Shown here: piece by piece, positions 47,917-63,537 of the stretch
Position numbering within the stretch: the stretch's first letter is position 1
Layout: the number at the start of each line of letters is the position of its first letter
Source: Prevotella sp.
Lineage (GTDB): Bacteria > Bacteroidota > Bacteroidia > Bacteroidales > Bacteroidaceae
Assembly: GCA_017412705.1 (NCBI GenBank)
Contig: JAFPWS010000002.1
Location: 1-64,000, forward strand
DNA: 64,000 nucleotides
Direction of reading: 5' to 3'
The notes under the pieces: model-generated
What the model was told of the DNA's origin: nothing
What the model saw: only the letters and a program-made list of their open reading frames with translations
The model's database searches: none
Translations under genes and position numbers: made by a program

Positions 47917-49836
47917 ATGGGAAAGATTATTGGAATCGACTTAGGAACAACCAACAGCTGTGTTGCCGTTTTCGAGGGTAACGAGCCTGTGGTTATCGCT
48001 AACAGCGAAGGTAAGCGTACTACACCTTCTGTAGTAGGTTTCGTTGAGAACGGTGAGCGTAAGATTGGTGACCCTGCCAAGCGTCAGGCTATCACTAACC
48101 CGAAGAAGACCGTTTACTCTATCAAGCGTTTTATGGGTGAGAACTGGCAACAGACCGAGAAGGAAATCTCTCGCGTACCTTATACAGTAGTCAACGAGGG
48201 TGGCTATCCACGTGTTGACATCGACGGACGTAAGTACACGCCACAGGAGATTTCAGCTATGGTGCTGCAGAAGATGAAGAAGACTGCCGAGGACTATCTC
48301 GGTCAGGAAGTAACTGATGCCGTTATCACCGTACCTGCCTACTTCTCTGACTCTCAGCGTCAGGCTACCAAGGAGGCTGGACAGATTGCCGGTCTGAATG
48401 TTCGCCGTATCGTCAACGAGCCTACAGCAGCCGCATTGGCTTACGGTGTCGACAAAGCAAACAAGGACATGAAGATTGCCGTCTTCGACCTCGGTGGTGG
48501 TACTTTCGATATCTCTATCCTCGAGTTCGGCGGTGGTGTCTTCGAGGTACTCTCTACCAACGGTGACACACACCTGGGTGGTGACGACTTCGACCAGGTA
48601 ATCATCGACTGGCTGGTACAGGAGTTCAAGAACGACGAGGGTGCCGACCTGAAGGCCGACCCAATGGCTATGCAGCGTCTGAAGGAGGCTGCCGAGAAGG
48701 CTAAGATTGAGCTGTCAAGCTCTACTTCTACGGAGATCAACCTTCCTTACATCATGCCTGTAGGCGGTGTACCTAAGCACTTGGTAAAGACACTGACTCG
48801 CGCTAAGTTCGAGCAGTTGGCACACGGACTCATTCAGGCTTGTCTGGCTCCATGTCAGAAGGCTATCGCTGATGCCAAACTGAATACTGCCGATATCGAT
48901 GAGGTCATCCTCGTAGGTGGTTCAAGCCGTATTCCTGCCGTTCAGGAACTCGTAAAGAACTACTTCGGCAAGGAGCCTTCAAAGGGTGTGAACCCTGACG
49001 AGGTGGTAGCCGTAGGAGCTTCTATCCAAGGTGCTATCCTGAACAAGGAAGGTGGCGTAGGCGACATCGTTCTGCTTGACGTAACGCCGCTGACACTGGG
49101 TATCGAGACCATGGGTGGCGTGATGACCAAGCTCATCGAGGCCAACACAACCATTCCTTGCAAGAAGAGTGAGACCTTCTCCACCGCTGCTGACAACCAG
49201 ACAGAGGTTACCATCCACGTACTGCAGGGCGAGCGTCCCATGGCAGCTCAGAACAAGAGCATCGGCCAGTTCAACCTGACAGGTATCGCACCTGCACGTC
49301 GTGGCATTCCTCAGATTGAGGTAACCTTCGATATTGATGCCAATGGTATTCTGAAGGTAAGTGCCAAGGATAAGGCTACAGGCAAGGAGCAGGCTATCCG
49401 TATCGAGGCTTCGTCAGGTCTGTCTCAGGACGAGATCAACCGCATGAAGGCCGAGGCAGAGCAGAATGCCGAGAATGACAAGAAGGAGCGCGAGCGTGTA
49501 GATAAGATGAACCAGGCTGACTCGATGATTTTCCAGACCGAAAACCAACTGAAGGAAATCGGCGACAAGATTCCCGCTCAGCACAAGCCCGCCATTGAGC
49601 AGGCCCTGCAGCAGCTGAAGGACGCCCACAAGGCTGGCGACATAGCAGCTATCGACACGGCTATGAATGCCCTTAACACCGCATGGCAGACCGCTTCACA
49701 GCAGATGTATCAGGGCGCTCAGGGTGGTGCCCAGGCAGGTCAGGAGAACCCCTTCAACGGTCAGCAGGCCGGTCCTCAGCAAGAGGCTCCAAAGGATGAG
49801 AACATCCAGGACGCCGACTTCGAGGAGGTGAAGTAA
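47917..49836 (+). CDS. dnaK: Molecular chaperone DnaK (Hsp70)
   Basis: A 639-residue Hsp70 with the three signatures [32 protein letters not shown] and [17 protein letters not shown], a substrate-binding domain ([20 protein letters not shown]) and a C-terminal lid ending with a glycine/glutamine tail and DADFEEVK. No dnaJ or grpE gene is adjacent. The last 15 bp of the gene recur at 55466-55480, marking an apparent insertion downstream. Confidence 0.98.
49822..49836 (+). repeat. 15-bp direct repeat, copy 1 (dnaK 3' end)
   Basis: GAGGAGGTGAAGTAA, the last five codons of dnaK (EEVK and stop with its preceding base context); identical to 55466-55480. Confidence 0.7.
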
Positions 49837-53780: not shown

Positions 53781-55373
53781 ATGGCACTGGCAATAAACAT
53801 AGAAGACCTGCTGAATAAGCAGAAGATTGAGTCCAATAGGATTGAATTCAAGAAAGGATGGAATCCTGCAAGCATATACCATAGTGTATGTGCTTTCGCC
53901 AATGATTTCGATGACCTTGGTGGTGGATATATTGTGGTAGGTGTTGACACTGATGACAATACAGGTATGGCTATCCGCCCCGTGGAAGGTGTACCCGTTG
54001 AAAAGATCGACGGCATCCTTCAGGAAATGGTAGGCTATAACAACAAAATGTCGCCCTACTACATGCCCAGAACGAGCGTTGAAGAAGTGGATGGAAAGCA
54101 GGTTTTAGTGATCTGGTGCCCTGCGGGCATCAACAGGCCGTATTCTGTGCCTGAGAATGTAACAGCGAAGAATGGAAGCAAGGAATATTTCTATATTCGC
54201 AGTGGGTCGAGCAGTATCATTGCCAAGGGTGAGGTGCTAGACGAACTGCGTGAGTTGGCCAGTCGTGTACCGTTTGATGAAAGAGGGAATCCAGACATCA
54301 AACTGGAGGACATATCCACACTGCTGCTTCGTGAGTATTTGGTGAAAGTTGGCAGTAAACTGGCCAACGAGCTTTATGAGCGACCGCTGAGCGAGATTCT
54401 GGAGCAGATGGACTTGTATGTCGGATCATCAGAGAATCGTATGCTGAGGAATGTGGCTGCTATGATGTTCTGCGAGAATCCAAGCAAATTCTTCAAGCGC
54501 ACACAGGTGGAAGTTGTTTTCTTCCCTGAAGGTCGGCTGGTGAATCCCAATAATCTATACGAAGCCCCAATTATCACAGGCTCCGTCACCCAGATTATCG
54601 AGCGGACGCTGGAGTATCTGAATCGCATGGTGGTGATGCAGACCATCATCAAACCCAAGAATGATAATCACAGCATCAAGTTCTATACCTATCCTTACCA
54701 AGCATTGGAGGAAAGTATAACGAACTCGCTTTATCATCGCGATTATCGGGAATGGGAGCCTGTTGTGATAACGGTGGAACCAAAGGGTATTACTATCCAG
54801 AACGTAGGCGGACCAGATCGTAGCATCCCTACTGCTGATATCAGTCGTGGTGAGCTACTTATCTCCAAGCGTTACCGCAACCGTCGTTTGGGTGAATACT
54901 TGAAGGAACTGGAAATGACCGAAGGACGCAGCACCGGTATTCCTACCATCCAGAATGTGCTGAAGTCCAATGGATCGCCTCGTGCTGCCGTTGTTACAGA
55001 TGAAGAGCGCACCTTCTTCCGTATCACAATCCCCTGTCATGAAGGTGCAGGCAATATCATTGCAGACATCGCGACAAGAGAAAAGTCACAGGAAAGTTCA
55101 CAGGAAATAGGCCAAAACATCCCTGATGTCCTGAAGGATGTCCTAAAGAATGTCCAAAAGGATGTCCTAAAGAAACTGACTGAAAGACAAATAGATATAT
55201 TGGAATTGATAGTACTTAACCCAACCATCACATTGAATGAAATGTCCAAAAGGATTGATGTATCTGTAAAAACAATCCAACGAGACTTTACGGCTGTGAG
55301 AGAACTTGGTATTCAAATCAACAGAAAAGACGGAAAAACCTATGGTGAATGGGAGGTTCTCTCTAAAGAGTGA
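53781..55373 (+). CDS. AlbA_2/Schlafen-type ATP-binding protein with C-terminal winged helix
   Basis: A 530-residue protein. Residues 18-130 are the AlbA_2 (Schlafen core) domain: ESNRIEFKKGWNP, VCAFANDFDDLGGGYIVVGVD, and KEYFYIRSGSSS. Residues 300-410 are the HATPase_c_4 type (YPYQALEESITNSLYHRDY, ISRGELLISKRYRNRRLGEYLKELEMTEGRSTGIPTI). A linker with VLKDVLKNVQKDVLKKL heptads leads to a winged helix (ILNEMSK-like TLNEMSKRIDVSVKTIQRDFTAVRELG). This layout is typical of Schlafen-like regulators or defence-associated proteins; the exact role is unknown. It diverges from the restriction-modification-like gene. Confidence 0.85.
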   Translation: MALAINIEDLLNKQKIESNRIEFKKGWNPASIYHSVCAFANDFDDLGGGYIVVGVDTDDNTGMAIRPVEGVPVEKIDGILQEMVGYNNKMSPYYMPRTSVEEVDGKQVLVIWCPAGINRPYSVPENVTAKNGSKEYFYIRSGSSSIIAKGEVLDELRELASRVPFDERGNPDIKLEDISTLLLREYLVKVGSKLANELYERPLSEILEQMDLYVGSSENRMLRNVAAMMFCENPSKFFKRTQVEVVFFPEGRLVNPNNLYEAPIITGSVTQIIERTLEYLNRMVVMQTIIKPKNDNHSIKFYTYPYQALEESITNSLYHRDYREWEPVVITVEPKGITIQNVGGPDRSIPTADISRGELLISKRYRNRRLGEYLKELEMTEGRSTGIPTIQNVLKSNGSPRAAVVTDEERTFFRITIPCHEGAGNIIADIATREKSQESSQEIGQNIPDVLKDVLKNVQKDVLKKLTERQIDILELIVLNPTITLNEMSKRIDVSVKTIQRDFTAVRELGIQINRKDGKTYGEWEVLSKE

Positions 55374-55465
55374 AGGATATATGGGTCATAGAAAGACGAA
55401 GAATAATAGTACCTTATTTGTACCACCAATTCGTAACTTACTGATTTACAACAGCGGTGAATTTT

Positions 55466-55480
55466 GAGGAGGTGAAGTAA
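55466..55480 (+). repeat. 15-bp direct repeat, copy 2 (displaced dnaK 3' end)
   Basis: Same 15 bp as 49822-49836, here preceded by AATTTT and outside any gene; a terminator hairpin follows 23 bp later, as would be expected behind dnaK. Confidence 0.6.
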
Positions 55481-55502
55481 ATCTCAAAAAACATTTATAT
55501 AG

Positions 55503-55528
55503 AAAAGGCTCCCGTTAAGGAGCCTTTT
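55503..55528. terminator. Bidirectional terminator
   Basis: AAAAGGCTCC (55503-55512), 6-nt loop, GGAGCCTTTT (55519-55528). Serves the BT4734-type gene on the minus strand; possibly the original dnaK terminator on the plus strand. Confidence 0.85.
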
Positions 55529-57643
55529 TCATTTTTCTGTCAGCCAGTACTCCATGTGTTTTCTGGTGCGCTTGCTCTTGAAGTTGAACTGGATGTCGTT
55601 GAGGGCGGAGCCGAGCTTATGGAACGGGGTCTCAGGGTCGAAGTTGGGATAGCGCTGGGTGAGCAGAGCGCTGATGTCACCCAGGCTCCACCAACGGGCC
55701 GTCTCTGTTTCCTTAGGCCGGCGGAAGGTCTCGCCAATCATCTCCACCAAGTCGTTCAGCTTCTGGAACGGCTCGTTCTCCTGAATCAGCGTGTCGATTT
55801 CATCGTTGTTCAGCCAGAAGCGCTCACCACTATTAAACAGGTGGAGAGCCTGGGCGAAGAGCTGTTCATGATAGATATTATCCTCGAAATTGATGTTACC
55901 AGTGACGCCCACACACACGAAGCGACGCGAGCCCGTAGGATCGACGAGGGGCTTCATCTGGTTCGTCGTTCCAATAAATGAGGTGTAACGGCGATACTGC
56001 TTGATGGTCTTGCCGTAGGGCGGACGGAACTTCACGTCGCTCGACGACAGTAGATATTTCAGCACAATCTGCTGCGACGAGGTGGTCTTGTCGAACTCGT
56101 CGATGTTGATGAGTGCAAACGAGGTCAGCGCGATGTTCAGGTCGAACTCGTTCTTGAAGTTGATCTTGTCGTTGTAGTAGTCGCGCAACTCAGGGGGCAG
56201 GAGTATCTTGCAGAAGCGCGTTTTTCCGCAACCCTGACGGCCTATCAGCAGCGGTGTTAAAGCATTGCCTGTCAACTGTTTATCGCTCTCGCGCCACTGA
56301 GCCACCATTCCCACGAGCCAGAATCGGAGGTATTTCTCCCAATGGGGCTGGTTCGTCGGCACACGCCTGGCGAGGTCGGCTATATAATCATGGCCATCCC
56401 ACTTGGGCAGCTGGTCGAGCCAGGTGTTCACGGGGTCATACTGTTCGATACGCGTCGAGTCGATGAAACGGTTCACGTTCCTATCCCATGCCTTCAAACC
56501 TAACTCAGTGGCCCTCAGCGTCATATCGTTGCGCACCTCGTCTGTCAGCGGCTTGAAACGCTGGTCGTCGCTGAACTTCTCGCGATACTCAGCCACACCC
56601 GTCAACAGGTTCTTGCGCATATCGAAGTTCGAATTGAGGAAAATCTCCGTCTTCATCGCCTGGATGGTATCCTCGGGGACACTTTTCAGCGGATGGAGCT
56701 TGTGTTTCTCACGATAGTCCTCCTGCTCTGCCACGCTATAGACCGTCTGGAAAATCTTCTCCACCAGCAACCTGTCGCGATTCAGCACGGGGTGGAGCAT
56801 CGTCAGCCCCTGGGCATGCGCCTTGGGAATGCCCTGATCCAGACACATCGAGGCAATCTGCATCAGCAGCGTCGCCTCCTTGTTCTCGTCGGGCAGGTCG
56901 AAATAGTGCCCCATCACCGTCTCAACGATAAAGGTCCAGTTCAGATGATAGGTACGGGTGACGGTGCGGCCAGGCATCAAGCCATCCTCCTCGCGACTGA
57001 TCATAACGGGCTGAGGCAGTTCGTGACTTTCCGTATCAGCATAGAAGGGGCGTGCATCCGCATGATAGCCCATCTCTGGGTCGGCACTCATATACACCGT
57101 ACGGTCGAGTCGCGGCTCCAGAAACTCGATATCGAAGCCGAACTGGTTCTGATAGGCCCTTCGCGCCGTATTATATATATTAAGGTGGAACTGGCGGATA
57201 TCCTTTTTCTCCGATGGCAACCCGCCGCCAAACAACACCCCTCTGCATATAATCTTCACGCTCCTACCCGATCCGCCCAGAAAACACAGCATGGTCTCAG
57301 GCAGCTTCTTGGCCAACTCCCTGATTTCCACCGCTTTCTCGTAAGTAGGCAGATCGTTGACCTCCAAGACCACGAGACCATTATACGCCATCATCTTCCA
57401 CTGGCCCTTCCGTTTTATGTAGTCGGCAGCGAAACAAATCCTGGGCAGCTTGACCCCACCCTCCCATTGAACAGAGACCTGTCCGTCTGGCAATCGACGC
57501 GGATTCATCAGATGATACACCTCGCGGGTGTGCCTGACAGTCTTCTCTGTCATCCCCGCCTTGATGGCATTCGCCATTGCAGCCACCTCCACACGATTAA
57601 TGACTTCCTTCTTGCCGTCTTTTTTCAGTAATGTTACATTCAT
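55529..57643 (-). CDS. BT4734/BF3469-type VirE/VapE protein (primase-helicase-like)
   Basis: A 704-residue protein of the Bacteroidota family with an N-terminal VirE/BT4734 domain (ARRLPDGQVSVQWEGG-type strand region, then FLGGSGRSVKIICRG), a central region, and a VapE-like P-loop ATPase: Walker A LLIGRQGCGKTRFC (near residue 467), Walker B FALINIDEFDKT, then FRPPYGKTIKQYRRYTSFIGTTN and PTGSRRFVCVGV with the arginine finger region. A DUF3874-like C-terminus ends the protein. Related proteins act as replicative primase/helicases of mobile elements; chromosomal copies are usually paired with an HU-like gene, as here. Its -7 box is 29 nt upstream. Confidence 0.85.
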   Translation of the reverse strand: MNVTLLKKDGKKEVINRVEVAAMANAIKAGMTEKTVRHTREVYHLMNPRRLPDGQVSVQWEGGVKLPRICFAADYIKRKGQWKMMAYNGLVVLEVNDLPTYEKAVEIRELAKKLPETMLCFLGGSGRSVKIICRGVLFGGGLPSEKKDIRQFHLNIYNTARRAYQNQFGFDIEFLEPRLDRTVYMSADPEMGYHADARPFYADTESHELPQPVMISREEDGLMPGRTVTRTYHLNWTFIVETVMGHYFDLPDENKEATLLMQIASMCLDQGIPKAHAQGLTMLHPVLNRDRLLVEKIFQTVYSVAEQEDYREKHKLHPLKSVPEDTIQAMKTEIFLNSNFDMRKNLLTGVAEYREKFSDDQRFKPLTDEVRNDMTLRATELGLKAWDRNVNRFIDSTRIEQYDPVNTWLDQLPKWDGHDYIADLARRVPTNQPHWEKYLRFWLVGMVAQWRESDKQLTGNALTPLLIGRQGCGKTRFCKILLPPELRDYYNDKINFKNEFDLNIALTSFALINIDEFDKTTSSQQIVLKYLLSSSDVKFRPPYGKTIKQYRRYTSFIGTTNQMKPLVDPTGSRRFVCVGVTGNINFEDNIYHEQLFAQALHLFNSGERFWLNNDEIDTLIQENEPFQKLNDLVEMIGETFRRPKETETARWWSLGDISALLTQRYPNFDPETPFHKLGSALNDIQFNFKSKRTRKHMEYWLTEK

Positions 57644-57672
57644 GATTGTTCAGTAATTATAAATTATGCCGA

Positions 57673-57680
57673 CAAAGATA
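57673..57680 (-). promoter_or_regulatory. -7 box TATCTTTG, BT4734-type gene
   Basis: 29 nt before the ATG at 57643. Confidence 0.6.
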
Positions 57681-57925
57681 CAAAAAAAAGCGGGAAAAAC
57701 AAAGTTTTTCAGAGAAAGTAACACTGAAATGCCTACACGCATACACCAAAAAAGTTCAAAATGTGTTTAAATAAATGGTTTTAGCCGAAATTTTACCTAC
57801 ACGTAACCTACACTATTTATACACAAATCCTACACACAGCAAACATGCCACTAACATACATTTAGCCCCCTACCTGGCAATATCAAGGCAGGCACTCCGC
57901 ACCTTTTATCCGTAATGGGAACAAC

Positions 57926-57943
57926 AAATTCTCGAGAGAATTT
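57926..57943. promoter_or_regulatory. Inverted repeat AAATTCTC-GA-GAGAATTT (site 1)
   Basis: Perfect 8-bp arms with a 2-bp spacer inside the core of the iteron-like array. Confidence 0.6.
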
Positions 57944-57990
57944 GCGACTTACCTCCCTATCCAGTAATTGTTAGTACGCGTCTAAACCGA

Positions 57991-58008
57991 AAATTCTCTC
58001 GATAATTT
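57991..58008. promoter_or_regulatory. Inverted repeat AAATTCTC-TC-GATAATTT (site 2)
   Basis: One mismatch relative to site 1 arms, same 2-bp spacing. Confidence 0.55.
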
Positions 58009-58311
58009 CCTTACTACCATTAACTACAGAACCTGCGAAGCCGTATCTTTCATCATGTTAGCTCCCTATGGAAATGCCAAGAAACGGGTATTTTGATATA
58101 TTTTGGTCAGATTTGTGTAGGTATAGTGTATGCAATGTGCAGGTTACGTGTAGGCAAAAATCAAACCTATCTTAATAATATACATTGGTTTACAGAAATA
58201 TCGTGTAGGCATGTAGGCTATCTTAAGTATTCTGACATTTCTATTAAAGGCTAAGAATGCTGAAATCGACCAAAAATCAACAATCTATCTGATTTTCGGG
58301 AAAAATTAAAG

Positions 58312-58329
58312 AAATTCTCTCAATAATTC
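58312..58329. promoter_or_regulatory. AAATTCTC-TC-AATAATTC (site 3)
   Basis: Weaker copy ending 21 bp before the HU-like gene -7 box. Confidence 0.4.
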
Positions 58330-58350
58330 GGCTTTTCGCCCGCTTATTCG

Positions 58351-58358
58351 TATCTTTG
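58351..58358 (+). promoter_or_regulatory. -7 box TATCTTTG, HU-like gene
   Basis: 31 nt before the ATG at 58390. Confidence 0.6.
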
Positions 58359-58389
58359 CGACGTAAACGAATCAATTAGTACAAAACTT

Positions 58390-58788
58390 ATGAAATACAG
58401 AGTCAAGAAAGAGACCAAGCCTACACTCAAGACCTTCGGCAAGTACAAGGCTGTAGCCGTTCACAACCAGACCATTGAGAGCCGTCAGCTGTTCGAAGAG
58501 GCCGCCAGTCACATGACCATTAGCGGAGGCGTGCTCGAAAGCATGATGATGGGGGTGGCTGAGACCGTCCGTCGCCATCTTCAGATGGGTGACAAGGTGC
58601 GTCTGAAGGACTTCGGCTTGATGAAGCTCGAAATCGAGAGCGACAAGGTCGACGACCCCAAGACCTTCCGTGCCAAAAAGCACATCCGTGGTGTCCGCCT
58701 CCACTTCATCCCAGAGAGCTACGATGGCTCGCAACCCCTCTACGAAGGCATCACCTACGAGAAGGACAAGAACTACACAACTGAATAG
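58390..58788 (+). CDS. HU/IHF-like DNA-binding protein (HU-related, Bacteroidota type)
   Basis: A 132-residue histone-like protein. It opens MKYRVKKETKPTLKTFGKYKA and contains the HU-fold pieces TIESRQLFEEAASHMTISGGVLESMMMGVAETVRRHLQMGDKVRLKDFGLMKLEIES, then an arm region (KHIRGVRLHFIPES). This is the TIGR01201-type HU-related family, longer than canonical HU by about 40 residues. It diverges from the BT4734-type gene across the iteron-like region, which it may bind. Confidence 0.9.
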   Translation: MKYRVKKETKPTLKTFGKYKAVAVHNQTIESRQLFEEAASHMTISGGVLESMMMGVAETVRRHLQMGDKVRLKDFGLMKLEIESDKVDDPKTFRAKKHIRGVRLHFIPESYDGSQPLYEGITYEKDKNYTTE

Positions 58789-58804
58789 GTTGGCAAGAGG
58801 CCGC

Positions 58805-61171
58805 CTACAGATTTACCGACTTCGAAGTGCCGTCATAATCAACGGTTGTCGTTGTGCCGTCAGGCAGCATGACGGTAAACCGGCGGGTCGTGAGCATGCC
58901 GGGATATTCGCCCTTACGGTCGCCGATGGTGAGCGTGCGGGACTTGTTGTTCCAATGGAATGTGATGGTGCTGTACACGCCCTTCTCGTAGTTATAGCCG
59001 TCGCCCTCGTCCTCATAGAGGGTGAACGACCCGTCGGCACCGGGATAGACGCGCAGTTCGAGGTTGTCCCACGCTTTCTCGCCCACATACTGCATCTCAG
59101 GACCCAGGGGCAGGATAGAGCCGGCACGAACGAACATCGGCACACGGTCGAAAGAGGTCTCGAGGGTTACGCTCTGTCCGCCATTATATTTCTTGTTGGT
59201 CCAGAAGTCATACCACAGCGCACCCTTGGGCAGATACTTCACAGCGGTCTTGCTGGTGGTGAAGTCCGCATTAACGGCCGATTCTCCCACAGCCGACTTG
59301 CGATCCCAGCCCGTCATCGCATCCTCCTTGATGACTTTCTCCTTGGTATACTGGGGGTCAACGATAGGTGCTGCAAGGATGCTGCGGCCGAACATAAACT
59401 CATCTGTGGTGTTCCACACCTTCTTGTCGCTGGCGAAGTCGCTGAAGAGAGGACGCAGGTAACTGCCGTTGGCTGAAGTGACCTGCCAGGCAGTACTATA
59501 CAGATAAGGTATCAGACGGTAGCGCAGGCGTATCATCTTCTCTATGGCATCATAGACAGGCTCGCCCTTCTTGCCGAACTGCCATATCTCACGGGGAGCA
59601 TCGGCACCATGACTGCGGAACACAGGACAGAATAGCCCGTACTGCATCCAGCGCACATATAGCTCCTGGAACTGCGGATTCTGGGGAGCAGAGCCTTTGC
59701 CCCGCGTGTTATACGAGCCACAGAAGAAGCCGCCGATGTCGGTATTGAAGTTTGGATTGCCCGTGAGTGAGAAACTCAGCCCCGCAGGCACCTGCTTGCG
59801 AAGCATGTCCCACGAAGAAGCCACATCGCCGCTCCACATGTTGGAGCCATAGTGCTGCTGACCGGCAAAGCTGCTACGGGTCATGATAAAGACGCGCTTC
59901 GGCGAGTTGGCATAATCCCTGCGCTGCGACTGATAGATGCCGCGAACGGTCTCCAAGGGGAAGGCGTTACGCTGTGAGCGCCACGTGCCGCCGAAGACCT
60001 TATGATCGTAGTCGCTCTCACGAGGATTGAAGAAGTCGGGGTCGGTAGAGTCCATCCACCAGGCATCAACACCATAGTCGTAGAGCTTACGAAGATACTT
60101 CCAGTAGATGTCACGTGCCACAGGACTGAAGGCGTCATAAACCTTCACGCCTGAGGGATACTCCATGACAGGAGGCCACACATGCGAGATGCCGCTCTGC
60201 GGCCAGGTATCGATAGGCAACAGCAGACCTTTTTCATTCAGCTCGCGGAACTGCTGCGTCATCGGGCCGAAGCTCGCCCAGATGGAAATCATGAAATGCG
60301 CGTGCTTCTTGTGTACATTCTTTATCATCTGAGGGCCTGTGGCAAAGTCCTCTGCCAGGAAATCCATCGCGTTCCAGAGGTAGTTGGAGCCCCAGTACTG
60401 CCAGTCCTGGATGATGCCGTCGAGGGGCACCTGCAGCTCACGATACTTATCGACGACGCCCTCCGTCTCGGCAGCGGTCTTATATCGCTCCTTGGATTGC
60501 CAGAAGCCGTAGGTCCAGAGCGGGAACATCGGCACGTCGCCAGAGAGACGGCGCATCTGGGCTATCACACCGTCGGCACTACCGCCATACATGAAGTAAT
60601 AGTCGATGCCCTCGCCTGCCTCAGAGGTGAAGGTCATGCCCTGGGCGTTGTCCTCGAAGAGAGTCGGTGAATAGTTCTCCCAATAGATGCCCCAGCCCTT
60701 GATGCTCTGAAGCACGTTCTGGAAGTCCTCGAGATTTGACTGCTCCATACGTTTCGTCTCGCCACGACGATTCATCTTCCCGTTCTGGACGGTGCCAAGA
60801 CCATAGATAGCCTCATCCTTGTCGAGCGTAAAGGTCTGGCTCACCTTCTGTATATCGCAGCTTTTCTCCCTGAGCAGGACCTTTCCCTTAGAGGTAAGGA
60901 AGGTGAGGTTGCCCTTGGCATCCTGTCTGACAATCAGTTCGCTGCTCGTCCAGGTGTTGCCTTTCTTCGCGACAGCCACCTTCTCCGGCAGGGCTGTGAC
61001 CACAAGAGTCTTAGTGGGCTCGCCCTTTACGACATGTACGATACTCGGGGTGAAGAACTCCACCTTCACCTCCTGTGCAGAACCGGAAATCACCATGCTC
61101 TTCTGAGCCGCGACAACATGGCTGACCACCATCAGCGCCACCATGCTCAAGACAGTTTTCTTTATCATCAT
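58805..61171 (-). CDS. Glycoside hydrolase family 31 (alpha-xylosidase/alpha-glucosidase type), secreted
   Basis: A 788-residue enzyme with a signal peptide (KKTVLSMVALMVVSHVVAA). The N-terminal beta-sandwich has FTLDKDEAIYGLGTVQ; the barrel contains PLWTYGFWQSKERY, DGIIQDWQYWG, the nucleophile D374 in DAWWMDSTDPDF, RSSFAGQQHYGSNMWSGDVASSWD with the acid/base region, and LYVRWMQYGLFCPVFRSHG. The DGIIQDWQYWG and xylosidase-like signatures favour alpha-xylosidase, which would act on xyloglucan fragments, but specificity is not certain. Unlike its AT-rich right-hand neighbours it has ordinary composition. Confidence 0.9.
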   Translation of the reverse strand: MMIKKTVLSMVALMVVSHVVAAQKSMVISGSAQEVKVEFFTPSIVHVVKGEPTKTLVVTALPEKVAVAKKGNTWTSSELIVRQDAKGNLTFLTSKGKVLLREKSCDIQKVSQTFTLDKDEAIYGLGTVQNGKMNRRGETKRMEQSNLEDFQNVLQSIKGWGIYWENYSPTLFEDNAQGMTFTSEAGEGIDYYFMYGGSADGVIAQMRRLSGDVPMFPLWTYGFWQSKERYKTAAETEGVVDKYRELQVPLDGIIQDWQYWGSNYLWNAMDFLAEDFATGPQMIKNVHKKHAHFMISIWASFGPMTQQFRELNEKGLLLPIDTWPQSGISHVWPPVMEYPSGVKVYDAFSPVARDIYWKYLRKLYDYGVDAWWMDSTDPDFFNPRESDYDHKVFGGTWRSQRNAFPLETVRGIYQSQRRDYANSPKRVFIMTRSSFAGQQHYGSNMWSGDVASSWDMLRKQVPAGLSFSLTGNPNFNTDIGGFFCGSYNTRGKGSAPQNPQFQELYVRWMQYGLFCPVFRSHGADAPREIWQFGKKGEPVYDAIEKMIRLRYRLIPYLYSTAWQVTSANGSYLRPLFSDFASDKKVWNTTDEFMFGRSILAAPIVDPQYTKEKVIKEDAMTGWDRKSAVGESAVNADFTTSKTAVKYLPKGALWYDFWTNKKYNGGQSVTLETSFDRVPMFVRAGSILPLGPEMQYVGEKAWDNLELRVYPGADGSFTLYEDEGDGYNYEKGVYSTITFHWNNKSRTLTIGDRKGEYPGMLTTRRFTVMLPDGTTTTVDYDGTSKSVNL

Positions 61172-61527: not shown

Positions 61528-61531
61528 ATGA
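61472..61531 (+). CDS. 19-residue leader ORF overlapping the nuclease-like gene
   Basis: MKNYELKERVISPQFLKRV; its TGA overlaps the ATG at 61528 (ATGA), so it could couple translation to the following gene or be a remnant of a longer gene. Not supported by any family. Confidence 0.35.
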   Translation: MKNYELKERVISPQFLKRV

Positions 61532-63537
61532 GAAGAGTAAACTTTGCAGATAAATTCAAGGAAAGTTGTTTGTACAAGGAATTGTATCTGAATCATCGGG
61601 ACGAACTATTCCTTGGCATAAGAAATGGCTACCTAAACATCTACTACAATAACATCAGCATTGCCAAGGTGTCGTATAGCGCAAAAGGACAGGTAAGATG
61701 TGAGATAAATGAGTATTATTTCACAGGTATCAGCAATTCTCCTATCCTAACCCTGAGTTCCGAACAGGAAATAGCCGATTGGATTATTGCTCGATATGAA
61801 ACCATAAAGAGAAACAGCGACAAGAAAACTAACGAAGAGAAGAAGTCACAGTCACATTTGTTTATCAAGAACAACAGAAACAAAGAATCTGAATGGTATT
61901 GCACCGATGTTGAATGGCGCAGACCACAGGATAATGAACATCCAGACTTCAATGCAAGGTTTGATATTGTTGCCATTTCCAAGAAAGCACCGCATCGTAT
62001 TGCGATTATTGAATTGAAATACGGGCGCGATTCTGTGGACGGCAGTAGTGGCTTGATGAAACATATTACGGACTTCTACAAATTTAGCTTGTATGGGTAT
62101 TTTGATGATTTCAAAATGGAAACATGGTCCATTCTGAAAAATCTTCGGGAACTGGATCCTGACTATCCACAGGAATTAGACCAAATACAATTAGGCCAAA
62201 TTGATTGTCACCCAGAATTTTATGTCATCACTCTCGATAATAACGCCTATGGACATCAATGTACTCCAAGACAGACTATCGGAGGCTATCTTTTCAACGA
62301 TTCTTCCCGCTGGAATAGTCCCAGAGTTTCAAGCAACACCATTGAATCGAAATTTGGAGACGTAACTAATCCCGGTAATGACAAGGTGTTTGTAAAATTT
62401 CTCTTCTCGTCTTCGACTATGAATGATCTCAGAGAAATGAACGTCATTGACATCATTGAGGATTCCATATACAAAGAGCCAAGCAAACAAATCGAGAATA
62501 ATAGTTCAAATCAAGTTAGTTCTCCGGTTGAAAGAAGACGCGTTGCAAATTATAGAGAAAAGGAAAAATGCCGTCAATTGGCATTATTGAGGCAAGACTC
62601 CGATGTCTTCTATGGTGCTCATGGTGGTGGCACGTTCAACAATCGCAATTGGGAGTTCTGCATTAAAAATGACGAGTCCTATAAGAATTTGTATAAGCGT
62701 ATAGTTAACGAGTGCATAGACTATTTCCATAGCGAAAACATTGTATTCTGGGGAAGTGAAGGTATCCCCAATCACATCTTGTCATCACAAGTGGCTTGTC
62801 TTAATCATCTATTTGCCATTAGGCAGGACAAAGAGATAGTACTCAAATTGGCCAAGATGTTGATAGGAGAAGATGCCATTGATGTAGAACCCATGAAATG
62901 TGACAGGGCTCTCACATATATCTCGTTTGAAGTAACAAGCAGCAGAGATTACTTGAATGAGAAAATAGTAAAAAGAGGAGCGAATTGTACTTCTGTGGAT
63001 GCTGCAATCTTGGCAATAATGGAAAATGGCACGAAAATGCTCATCCCTATTGAATGGAAATATACAGAAGGGAATGAATATAATATAGACAAGTCTGGTA
63101 AGGAGGGAAGCGGGAAGGAACGATTACGCAGATATTCCCATTTAATTGATAATTCCTGTCAATTACTCTCAATTCCCAATGGATACCTTCACACGATCTA
63201 TTTTGTTGAGCCATTTTATCAACTGATGCGCCAAACACTATGGGCGGAACAAGTGATAGCACATAAAGAAATAGAGTATATTAAAGCAGATGACTTCATC
63301 CATGTTCATGTTATTCCAAAGGGGAATGCACAACTTCTGCATCGGAAATATAGATATTCTGACAAAGGATTAGAGAATACATGGCGTTCGCAAATTATTG
63401 ACCAGAAAAAGTATAGATGGGTAACTCCTGAAGAGATTGCTCGTGTTATTAGTCTATCGGGTAAGTATACAGAACTTGTAAAATACCTGAGTGTTAGATA
63501 TGGATACAACATCGACACACAAAAATCACAGGATTAG
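61528..63537 (+). CDS. Protein with two PD-(D/E)xK-like nuclease domains (PGN_0703-like)
   Basis: A 669-residue protein. Region one (about 130-165) has FDIVAISKKAPHRIAIIELKYGRDS, a D...E-x-K core with ELK near residue 160. Region two (about 480-515) has SVDAAILAIMENGTKMLIPIEWKYTEG, again D...E-x-K with EWK near residue 507, and matches the pattern of the PGN_0703-type restriction endonuclease-like family. Between them are charged, poorly conserved stretches. The gene is clearly richer in A and T than the core genes, as if acquired recently. A restriction or anti-phage role is possible but not shown. Confidence 0.65.
   Translation: MRRVNFADKFKESCLYKELYLNHRDELFLGIRNGYLNIYYNNISIAKVSYSAKGQVRCEINEYYFTGISNSPILTLSSEQEIADWIIARYETIKRNSDKKTNEEKKSQSHLFIKNNRNKESEWYCTDVEWRRPQDNEHPDFNARFDIVAISKKAPHRIAIIELKYGRDSVDGSSGLMKHITDFYKFSLYGYFDDFKMETWSILKNLRELDPDYPQELDQIQLGQIDCHPEFYVITLDNNAYGHQCTPRQTIGGYLFNDSSRWNSPRVSSNTIESKFGDVTNPGNDKVFVKFLFSSSTMNDLREMNVIDIIEDSIYKEPSKQIENNSSNQVSSPVERRRVANYREKEKCRQLALLRQDSDVFYGAHGGGTFNNRNWEFCIKNDESYKNLYKRIVNECIDYFHSENIVFWGSEGIPNHILSSQVACLNHLFAIRQDKEIVLKLAKMLIGEDAIDVEPMKCDRALTYISFEVTSSRDYLNEKIVKRGANCTSVDAAILAIMENGTKMLIPIEWKYTEGNEYNIDKSGKEGSGKERLRRYSHLIDNSCQLLSIPNGYLHTIYFVEPFYQLMRQTLWAEQVIAHKEIEYIKADDFIHVHVIPKGNAQLLHRKYRYSDKGLENTWRSQIIDQKKYRWVTPEEIARVISLSGKYTELVKYLSVRYGYNIDTQKSQD

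Follow-up and report, generated by a model that had tools for sequence, protein, structure and literature searches.

What does a mirror-symmetric array of short repeats do between two divergent genes on a Prevotella chromosome? In the window, by which we mean the whole stretch of 64,000 nucleotides analysed, twelve CCTACAC-type words, six per strand, form two mirror halves at 57732-58217. An earlier note on this DNA had described these words with their positions and spacings, had named the adjoining genes as BT4734/VapE-type and HU-like, and had proposed a replication origin or a looped nucleoprotein complex. The module consists of the following features:

55529..57643, minus strand: gene of 704 aa with a BT4734-like N-terminal domain (AEP primase family), a VapE-type helicase domain and a DUF3874-like C-terminus; putative initiator
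57732..57746, plus strand: left outer iteron pair, CCTACAC and CATACAC, 8 bp apart
57747..57795, no strand: left AT-rich gap, 56 bp from start to start
57796..57835, plus strand: left inner array, four words at 11-bp spacing
57836..58114, no strand: core, 279 bp
57927..57942, no strand: palindrome AATTCTCGAGAGAATT, which departs at 1 position from AATTCTCTAGAGAATT, the most frequent form in the family
57992..58007, no strand: second palindrome AATTCTCTCGATAATT, with 2 mismatches to that form and at a distance of 65 bp
58115..58154, minus strand: right inner array, four words at 11-bp spacing
58155..58202, no strand: right AT-rich gap, 55 bp from start to start
58203..58217, minus strand: right outer iteron pair, 8 bp apart
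58312..58328, no strand: third palindrome, degenerate with 3 mismatches, at the HU promoter, 61 bp upstream of the start of that gene
58390..58788, plus strand: HU-HIG family DNA-binding protein, divergent to vapE, 132 aa (PF18291, 3e-16)

The words start at 57732, 57740, 57796, 57807, 57818 and 57829 on the plus strand and at 58115, 58126, 58137, 58148, 58203 and 58211 on the minus strand, giving spacings of 8, 56 and 3 x 11 bp on the left and 3 x 11, 55 and 8 bp on the right. Seven of the twelve are exact CCTACAC and eleven lie within one mismatch, TATACAC at 57818 being the sole word with two. To quantify the symmetry, we used a mirror score S based on exact 7-mers. The spacer 57644-58389 scores 6.5, a value reached in 0/2000 dinucleotide shuffles (maximum 4.5), and the twelve-word array described in the earlier note is thereby borne out. 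Words with at most one mismatch number 11 in the spacer, against a shuffle mean of 1.24 and a maximum of 6. The exact heptamer occurs 13 times in the 64 kb against 6.1 expected, and 1/100 shuffles equalled that count. What is exceptional is the order, strand and spacing of the words; CCTACAC itself is not rare. Chance alignment of a common heptamer was rejected on these shuffles together with the control windows given below, and an RNA element was rejected for lack of any Rfam match at gathering score in 55300-59000.

Pfam domain matches confirm the identity of both adjoining genes. The 704-aa protein matches PF08800 (6e-39) and PF05272 (5e-35), and PF12990 at 3e-6 with 27.8 bits against a cut-off of 28.3. 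It carries the motifs GRQGCGK, INIDEFD and GSRRF, which we take to be Walker A/B and arginine-finger-like motifs, and its domains and motifs place it in the BT4734-like AEP / VapE family. The sole solved-structure match of its profile is PDB 7pds, 'Similar to D. nodosus vapE', to which the helicase part aligns (E 2e-12) and which is presumably a SaPI-type Rep. PADLOC labels the primase domain PrimPol, adds a weak RT-associated hit and leaves the HU protein unlabelled; PHROGs holds no family for the latter. A REase-ARP / PD-(D/E)XK type gene of 669 aa lies near the module at 61528-63537.

If the array belongs to the module, it should be visible in relatives. Public genomes were scanned with an alignment of 14 VapE proteins, and the best 80 of 351 relatives were taken; judging by their titles, most are metagenome assemblies of Prevotella and Xylanibacter, often of ruminant origin, and a few are isolates. 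Among the 76 loci with at least 600 bp upstream (4/80 fell below this length and were dropped), 74 reach S>=4 and 64 reach S>=5, compared with 40/582 and 2/582 control windows of the same contigs. The search for phased arrays at other BT4734/HU loci that the earlier note had suggested thus finds the array at most close relatives, and the mirror layout is a trait of this clade. A larger set of 94 regions, eight of which (L047-L054) are double entries, contains 87 with S>=4 and 78 scoring above all of 20 shuffles; with the duplicates removed, 79 of 86 regions have S>=4 and 67 have S>=5.

Seven loci with S<4 (L012, L014, L016, L017, L055, L112 and L129) were left out before word fitting. In the 79 fitted loci, successive words on the same strand are most often 11 bp apart (438 times), followed by 8 bp (71), 55 bp (48), 10 and 7 bp (35 each), 22 bp (33) and 66 bp (28). 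Exclusion of loci with unreadable runs leaves 70 for the analysis of compartments and 75 for that of covariation. In the 70 loci, inner arrays hold about four words each and the core has a median length of 268 bp (range 31-482). The AT fraction is 0.77 and 0.75 in the 50 bp beside the two inner arrays and 0.62 in the core. Plus/minus word pairs stand in mirror order in only 3204 of 3773 cases, mainly because TGACAT-type words are near-identical to their own reverse complement.

An extension of the trait to the BT4734 family as a whole is not supported. Seven loci at greater distance (three records of Bacteroides/Parabacteroides, three contigs from the human gut and one IMG/VR contig; L198 unscored) have no clear mirror (S 2.0-3.5), with L194 (1/200 shuffles as high) and L197 (5/200) borderline. 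L197 (MT836775, a human gut contig) displays a repeated palindrome, ATAGGTAGTACTACCTAT, between inverted AAACTAA-type words before its BT4734/VapE gene. Four paralogues in the window's own genome (C61, C44, C42 and C27) score 2.5 each, and their exact 7-mers do not beat shuffles; they show repeats by eye and, like a fifth paralogue with S 4.0 (C76), are not counted as support. A one-contig genome (G024) contains four several-kb segments, ~88-96% identical (L060-L063), each with a more distant BT4734/VapE gene directly preceded by repeats; this is a different element, apparently amplified recently.

Features absent from the earlier note are the two palindromes of the core and the degenerate third. 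Across the family, the commonest form is the one given above, and 110 of 111 palindromes in 848 kb fall within 1.2 kb upstream of vapE. The cores of the 70 loci hold two palindromes in 43 cases, one in 12 and none in 15. Their spacing is close to invariant, with successive distances in 80 loci of 65 bp (43 times), 66 bp (4) and 348 bp (1), so that 47 of 48 are 65-66 bp. The palindrome is also linked to the HU gene, being present at 40 of 41 loci with a nearby HU match versus 20 of 33 without one (Fisher p 5e-5, relatedness uncorrected). Allowing up to 4 mismatches, 29 of 40 HU loci carry a copy in the 140 bp that precede the HU start, compared with 2% in shuffles. The simplest reading is that HU-HIG would bind the palindrome both at its own promoter and in the core. 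A second core type carries CATGCCGA / TCGGCATG-like repeats ~22 bp apart instead of twin palindromes; it is found in the C76 and C42 vapE spacers of the own genome (L015, L016), in L136 and in the L199 family.

One alternative is an operator, in which VapE and/or HU would repress both divergent promoters through a DNA loop and the layout would be purely regulatory. At most loci, ~60-140 bp separate the right outer pair from vapE, and the left pair is close to HU where that gene is present; these positions suit an operator, as do the palindrome copies in the HU promoter. Yet the HU match nearby is missing at 33 of 74 loci and the mirror is kept all the same: S>=5 is reached in 29 of 37 regions without HU (for example the strong mirrors L070, L098, L111 and L138) and in 36 of 40 with it, the window included. 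A dozen or more sites also exceed what an operator needs. We consider a purely regulatory role unlikely, and the gene-less copies described below weigh further against it.

The words themselves differ from locus to locus and include CCTACAC, CCTACAT, AACTACAT, CTGACAT, CCGACAT, AACCACCA, CCTCTAC, CCTTCACT, AAAGATACA, AACCCTAC and CTCCACTAA; each array's word is private to its copy. Word distance tracks VapE protein distance, with a Mantel rho of 0.607 over 75 loci against a maximum of 0.191 in 500 permutations; the loci are related, and this value, like the Fisher values given here, is uncorrected for phylogeny. A sliding-window partial correlation, controlled for the rest of the protein, can offer more detail on where this signal resides. 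Over 74 loci (L141, whose N-terminus is missing, was left out), it peaks at aa 641-700 (0.33), 1-60 (0.27) and 41-100 (0.25); no other window exceeds its permutation maximum, and those from aa 81 to 660 are unremarkable. The best 30 single columns comprise 12 in aa 625-704 (71 variable columns), 4 in 1-64 (60), 7 in the primase domain at 65-191 (97), 3 in 192-408 (169) and 4 in 409-624 (96). The covariation lies chiefly with the VapE termini, and the evidence that these parts (the first ~100 and last ~60 residues) read the word is strong but not conclusive, since the termini are among the most variable parts of the protein (mean distance 0.46-0.51) and this variability could inflate the correlation.

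The array also occurs on its own. We searched the own genome with the word pair, allowing three mismatches. Overall there is no excess (284 counts versus 297 in the reversed control). The matches include repeated CCTTCAC arrays of ~500 bp, in eight copies of which one is truncated by a contig end. These eight are 82-95% identical to L199, and the complete ones hold outer pairs, gaps, inner arrays and core; a ninth locus examined, L200, has no array. In 59 other genomes of the genus, the repeat finds matches of at most 58 bp in four and none in the rest. The relative found for the CCTTCAC arrays is a vapE locus of another genome, L136, where such an array precedes vapE with 79.9% identity over 353 bp; the other 92 vapE upstream regions gave no match to it. 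None of 21 tested loci, among them the array-only loci and the array-less L200, has a VapE match at E<=1e-3, and a vapE copy with the CCTTCAC word was not found in the own genome, a MAG that is 86% complete.

Despite the lack of a gene, these arrays are constrained. Alignment of six copies, leaving out the one cut by the contig end and the one at 82%, places variable sites at 8/123 positions of the arrays, 9/108 of the core and 38/107 of the gaps, so that the gaps are more variable than either the arrays or the core (Fisher 4e-8 and 1e-6). For an operator, copies that lack vapE and still have words and core less variable than the gaps are hard to accommodate. With the array found both without HU and without vapE, a simple divergent-promoter switch is insufficient alone.

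The palindromes lead to gene-less copies in other genomes. Of 60 genomes of the genus, 9 contain the palindrome pattern and none matches the reversed control; the pattern guided us to mirror copies without vapE in G025, G007, G031 and G018. Ten of the 20 palindrome sites examined (L256-L261, L264, L265, L267 and L268; S 4.5-8.5) were counted as array copies; three of the ten have an S of no more than 4.5-5.0, which is also seen in some controls, and were counted with additional regard to their twin palindromes and their 75-83% similarity to one another and to the vapE locus L055. We did not count L262, L269 and L273 (S 4.5-5.0), whose words are low-complexity or derived from the palindrome, while L263, L266, L270-L272, L274 and L275 score 2.5-4.0. 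One counted copy, L260, retains the HU gene and another, L259, an HU remnant. In G025 (CCGACAT) and G007 (ACTGACAT), the word of gene-less copies recurs at a vapE locus within the respective genome; in G018, a vapE with the word of its gene-less copies was not found. G038 holds 29 dispersed single ATTCTCTAGAGAAT palindromes, L271-L275 being five of them, and one distant vapE match. As candidate mirror arrays these sites were rejected: they represent a different repeat, and the five examined (S 2.5-4.5) contain no convincing mirror.

Dispersed copies of this kind bring to mind transposon ends. The outer pairs would then be the terminal inverted repeats, and the inner words the subterminal repeats, of a transposon mobilised by another, unlinked enzyme, with vapE and HU as passengers. 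The array-only copies are indeed MITE-like, being several, dispersed, gene-less and, at ~500 bp, within the 50-1000 bp of such elements, and their outer pairs are inverted; the words shared with same-genome vapE loci in G025 and G007 agree with this as well. The copied unit, however, reaches ~146 bp beyond the left outer pair, and the outer pairs of full copies do not enclose vapE and HU. Target-site duplications, a further mark of MITEs, are absent at the six copies inspected, where the longest word shared by left and right flanks is 3-4 bp, against a mean of 3.97 bp and a maximum of 6 in a cross-pair control. Passenger genes, moreover, would not explain the covariation of the words with VapE. 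We regard transposon ends as quite improbable.

A comparison of the region upstream of purD, in which the exact empty site was sought and not found, covered 20 relatives, one of them too short. None of the other 19 has at least two exact CCTTCAC words on both strands; L287 carries three on one strand, L290 two and L281 one per strand. The junction is unreadable here, as the next gene is not the same in any of the 19.

In many of the 70 most similar locus pairs, similarity ends at or within tens of bases of the vapE stop; beyond it the sequence differs between loci, the 3' regions being unrelated. In other pairs the shared sequence continues further into the flanks, and both loci seem to occupy one and the same site. 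Neighbours that can be named from their translations are ordinary chromosomal genes (dnaK, recA-like, folD, ffh), and no integrase was recognised among the 40 most shared neighbour families of 81 loci, each family being judged from the beginning of a single translation. There are eight Pfam Phage_integrase matches in the own genome, the nearest ~54 kb from the window module; one lies ~5 kb from the distant paralogue on C42 and one ~12 kb from that on C27. Records of plasmids (97) and phages (525) with a match are all below 60% identity (25.7-37.4% among the 15 matches listed for each), and five IMG/VR loci are at 33-36%. An ordinary prophage or plasmid origin was rejected on these grounds; the records inspected look to us like chromosome fragments or unverified contigs. 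Two pairs of own-genome contigs, C47/C65 and C61/C95, overlap by ~16 kb and 9 kb at 99.98-100% identity, probably reflecting redundant MAG assembly rather than true duplications.

Of 81 loci, 8 have a dnaK-like family as a neighbour; across the genus, the 3' end of dnaK has the appearance of a hotspot for insertions. In the window, the dnaK 3'-end sequence (NFEEVK-stop) occurs at 55460-55480 and at 49816-49836, the vapE-side copy lying 5.6 kb from the real end. The segment between the two contains a Schlafen/AlbA_2 gene plus a gene of 775 aa that no Pfam family matches, and it has the look of an island that was inserted at the 3' end of dnaK. At 5 of 20 loci (L236, L242, L244, L246 and L251), a zinc-finger-like gene and a gene of 333-425 aa directly follow dnaK; by eye, we take the latter for a tyrosine recombinase, and the dnaK 3' end seems to be a common integration site.

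Ordinary surroundings could also signify domestication, with the arrays serving as chromosome-organising or restart sites, VapE landing places that benefit the host and are kept by selection rather than selfishly. Constraint on words and core in gene-less copies is compatible with such a role, and the recurrent dnaK-like neighbour would suggest long residence. Sites that benefit the host sit poorly, however, with a CCTTCAC repeat present in the own genome and matched in four of 59 others, over at most 58 bp, with words that diverge fast, and with vapE matches that range from 0 to 14 per genome in the genus. We consider domestication very unlikely.

The closest parallels are found among satellite replicons. 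According to the passages available from PMC7581432 and PMC6092414, the C-terminus of SaPI Rep helicases recognises iterons next to the helicase's own gene, with binding apparently by two hexamers, and PICI origins consist of an AT-rich region between two iteron sets. Compared with these replicons, the Prevotella module is alike in pairing a self-loading type of helicase and a primase with a short-iteron origin-like site, as in pri-rep-ori, in that each array half holds two iteron sets around an AT-rich gap (~0.75-0.77 AT), and in a specificity that would reside in the helicase C-terminus, as we infer for VapE. It differs in that the array is doubled as a mirror around a core often holding twin palindromes, that a divergent HU gene is present in about half of the loci, and that gene-less derivatives exist. 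PICI origins lie 3' of rep, whereas the analysed arrays are 5' of vapE, and the 40 most shared neighbour families of the 81 loci include no PICI gene set that we could see. By analogy, the module would work like a PICI replicon, yet it is not classed as a PICI, given the position of the array and the fact that no PICI gene set was seen among these families.

Phage P4 alpha is a fused primase-helicase driving autonomous replication from its own sites, and P4 is a packaged phage satellite that is not known to have HU-linked palindromes. The VapE module is proposed to share with P4 the fused primase-helicase with its own sites. The parts available of PMC6092414 and PMC7145576 mention the alpha protein with origin sites. 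BT4734-like domains are described in the available part of PMC5862659 as an AEP primase family tied to no AEP clade; the N-terminal domain of the window protein belongs there (PF08800), and that part makes no mention of a cis array. As a gene-less repeat, BrickBuilt of Porphyromonas gingivalis, in the section available of PMC4596501 a 23-nt tandem minisatellite with IS-like ends, resembles the array-only copies, as MITEs do, in being intergenic, dispersed and gene-less with inverted ends; the latter differ in their mirrored 11-bp arrays related to a primase-helicase locus and in the lack of a target duplication.

We know of no assigned role for BT4734/VapE genes. None is named in the open-access text available, among the matches listed; a Prevotella intermedia paper, in the portion available (PMC4349605), lists VapE genes only. 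Mirror iteron arrays at BT4734/VapE genes are likewise undescribed there. A primase-helicase with an iteron origin is an already known kind. New, in that they are undescribed among the listed matches in the text available, are the duplication of the array as a mirror, the words private to each copy, the twin palindromes 65 bp apart and the derivatives without genes.

The observations can be best explained, in our estimation, by an array that is the origin-like cis site of the adjoining primase-helicase, the two together making up a minimal chromosomal mobile element, a proposal that we see as evenly balanced between right and wrong. The likeness to SaPI/PICI origins, the AEP primase domain and the 7pds match lead us to take the array as a VapE origin site. 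The origin or looped complex of the earlier note remains the best reading, on account of the covariation of protein and word, the AT-rich gaps and the helicase-core homology to a solved VapE protein; what changes is that the array is tied to neither HU nor vapE. Against the origin-like element are the lack of a dispersal enzyme, given the distance of the integrases, the lack of target duplication and of an exact empty site, and the position of the array 5' of the gene, unlike in PICIs. Also against it count the CCTTCAC arrays of the own genome, for which no vapE with that word was found there, the variability of the VapE termini together with the seven best columns in the primase domain, and the lack of a clear mirror at the seven more distant loci and at the own paralogues C61, C44, C42 and C27.

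We hypothesize that VapE binds its own word through the C-terminal DUF3874-like segment, possibly also through the N-terminus, and that the 11-bp spacing of the words puts successive VapE units on the same side of the double helix. With its pair, AT-rich gap and array, each half resembles a satellite-island origin, in which two iteron sets surround a melting site. As the halves face each other, a head-to-head loading of two helicase rings would be possible, from which the fused primase could prime synthesis in both directions. The twin palindromes may be occupied by HU-HIG dimers that bend the core and bring the halves together, and HU-HIG on the third palindrome may regulate its own gene. Local copying of the segment, followed by some form of recombination, would spread the copies, gene-less arrays included. 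The latter would depend on a VapE with the same word, and distinct words would keep co-resident copies from cross-reacting.

The arrays provide BT4734/VapE genes, of which a genome in the genus carries up to 14 copies, with a concrete cis partner. The 75 natural word/protein pairs constitute a testable protein-DNA recognition code, HU-HIG on the 16-bp palindrome is a possible second DNA-binding partner, and the dispersed gene-less arrays form an additional set to study. Scattered over some genomes, these gene-less arrays point to an undescribed kind of selfish element. It is possible, and we put it forward tentatively, that the modules represent a class of selfish elements that disperse by a primase-helicase and a mirror array alone, without transposase or integrase, each with its own address to which its VapE is restricted, and that the gene-less arrays of matching address parasitise the parasite. 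Should the arrays fire as origins, the chromosomes of common rumen bacteria would contain several additional origins, each self-addressed; should they move, the dispersal of elements would have a new agent in primase-helicases.
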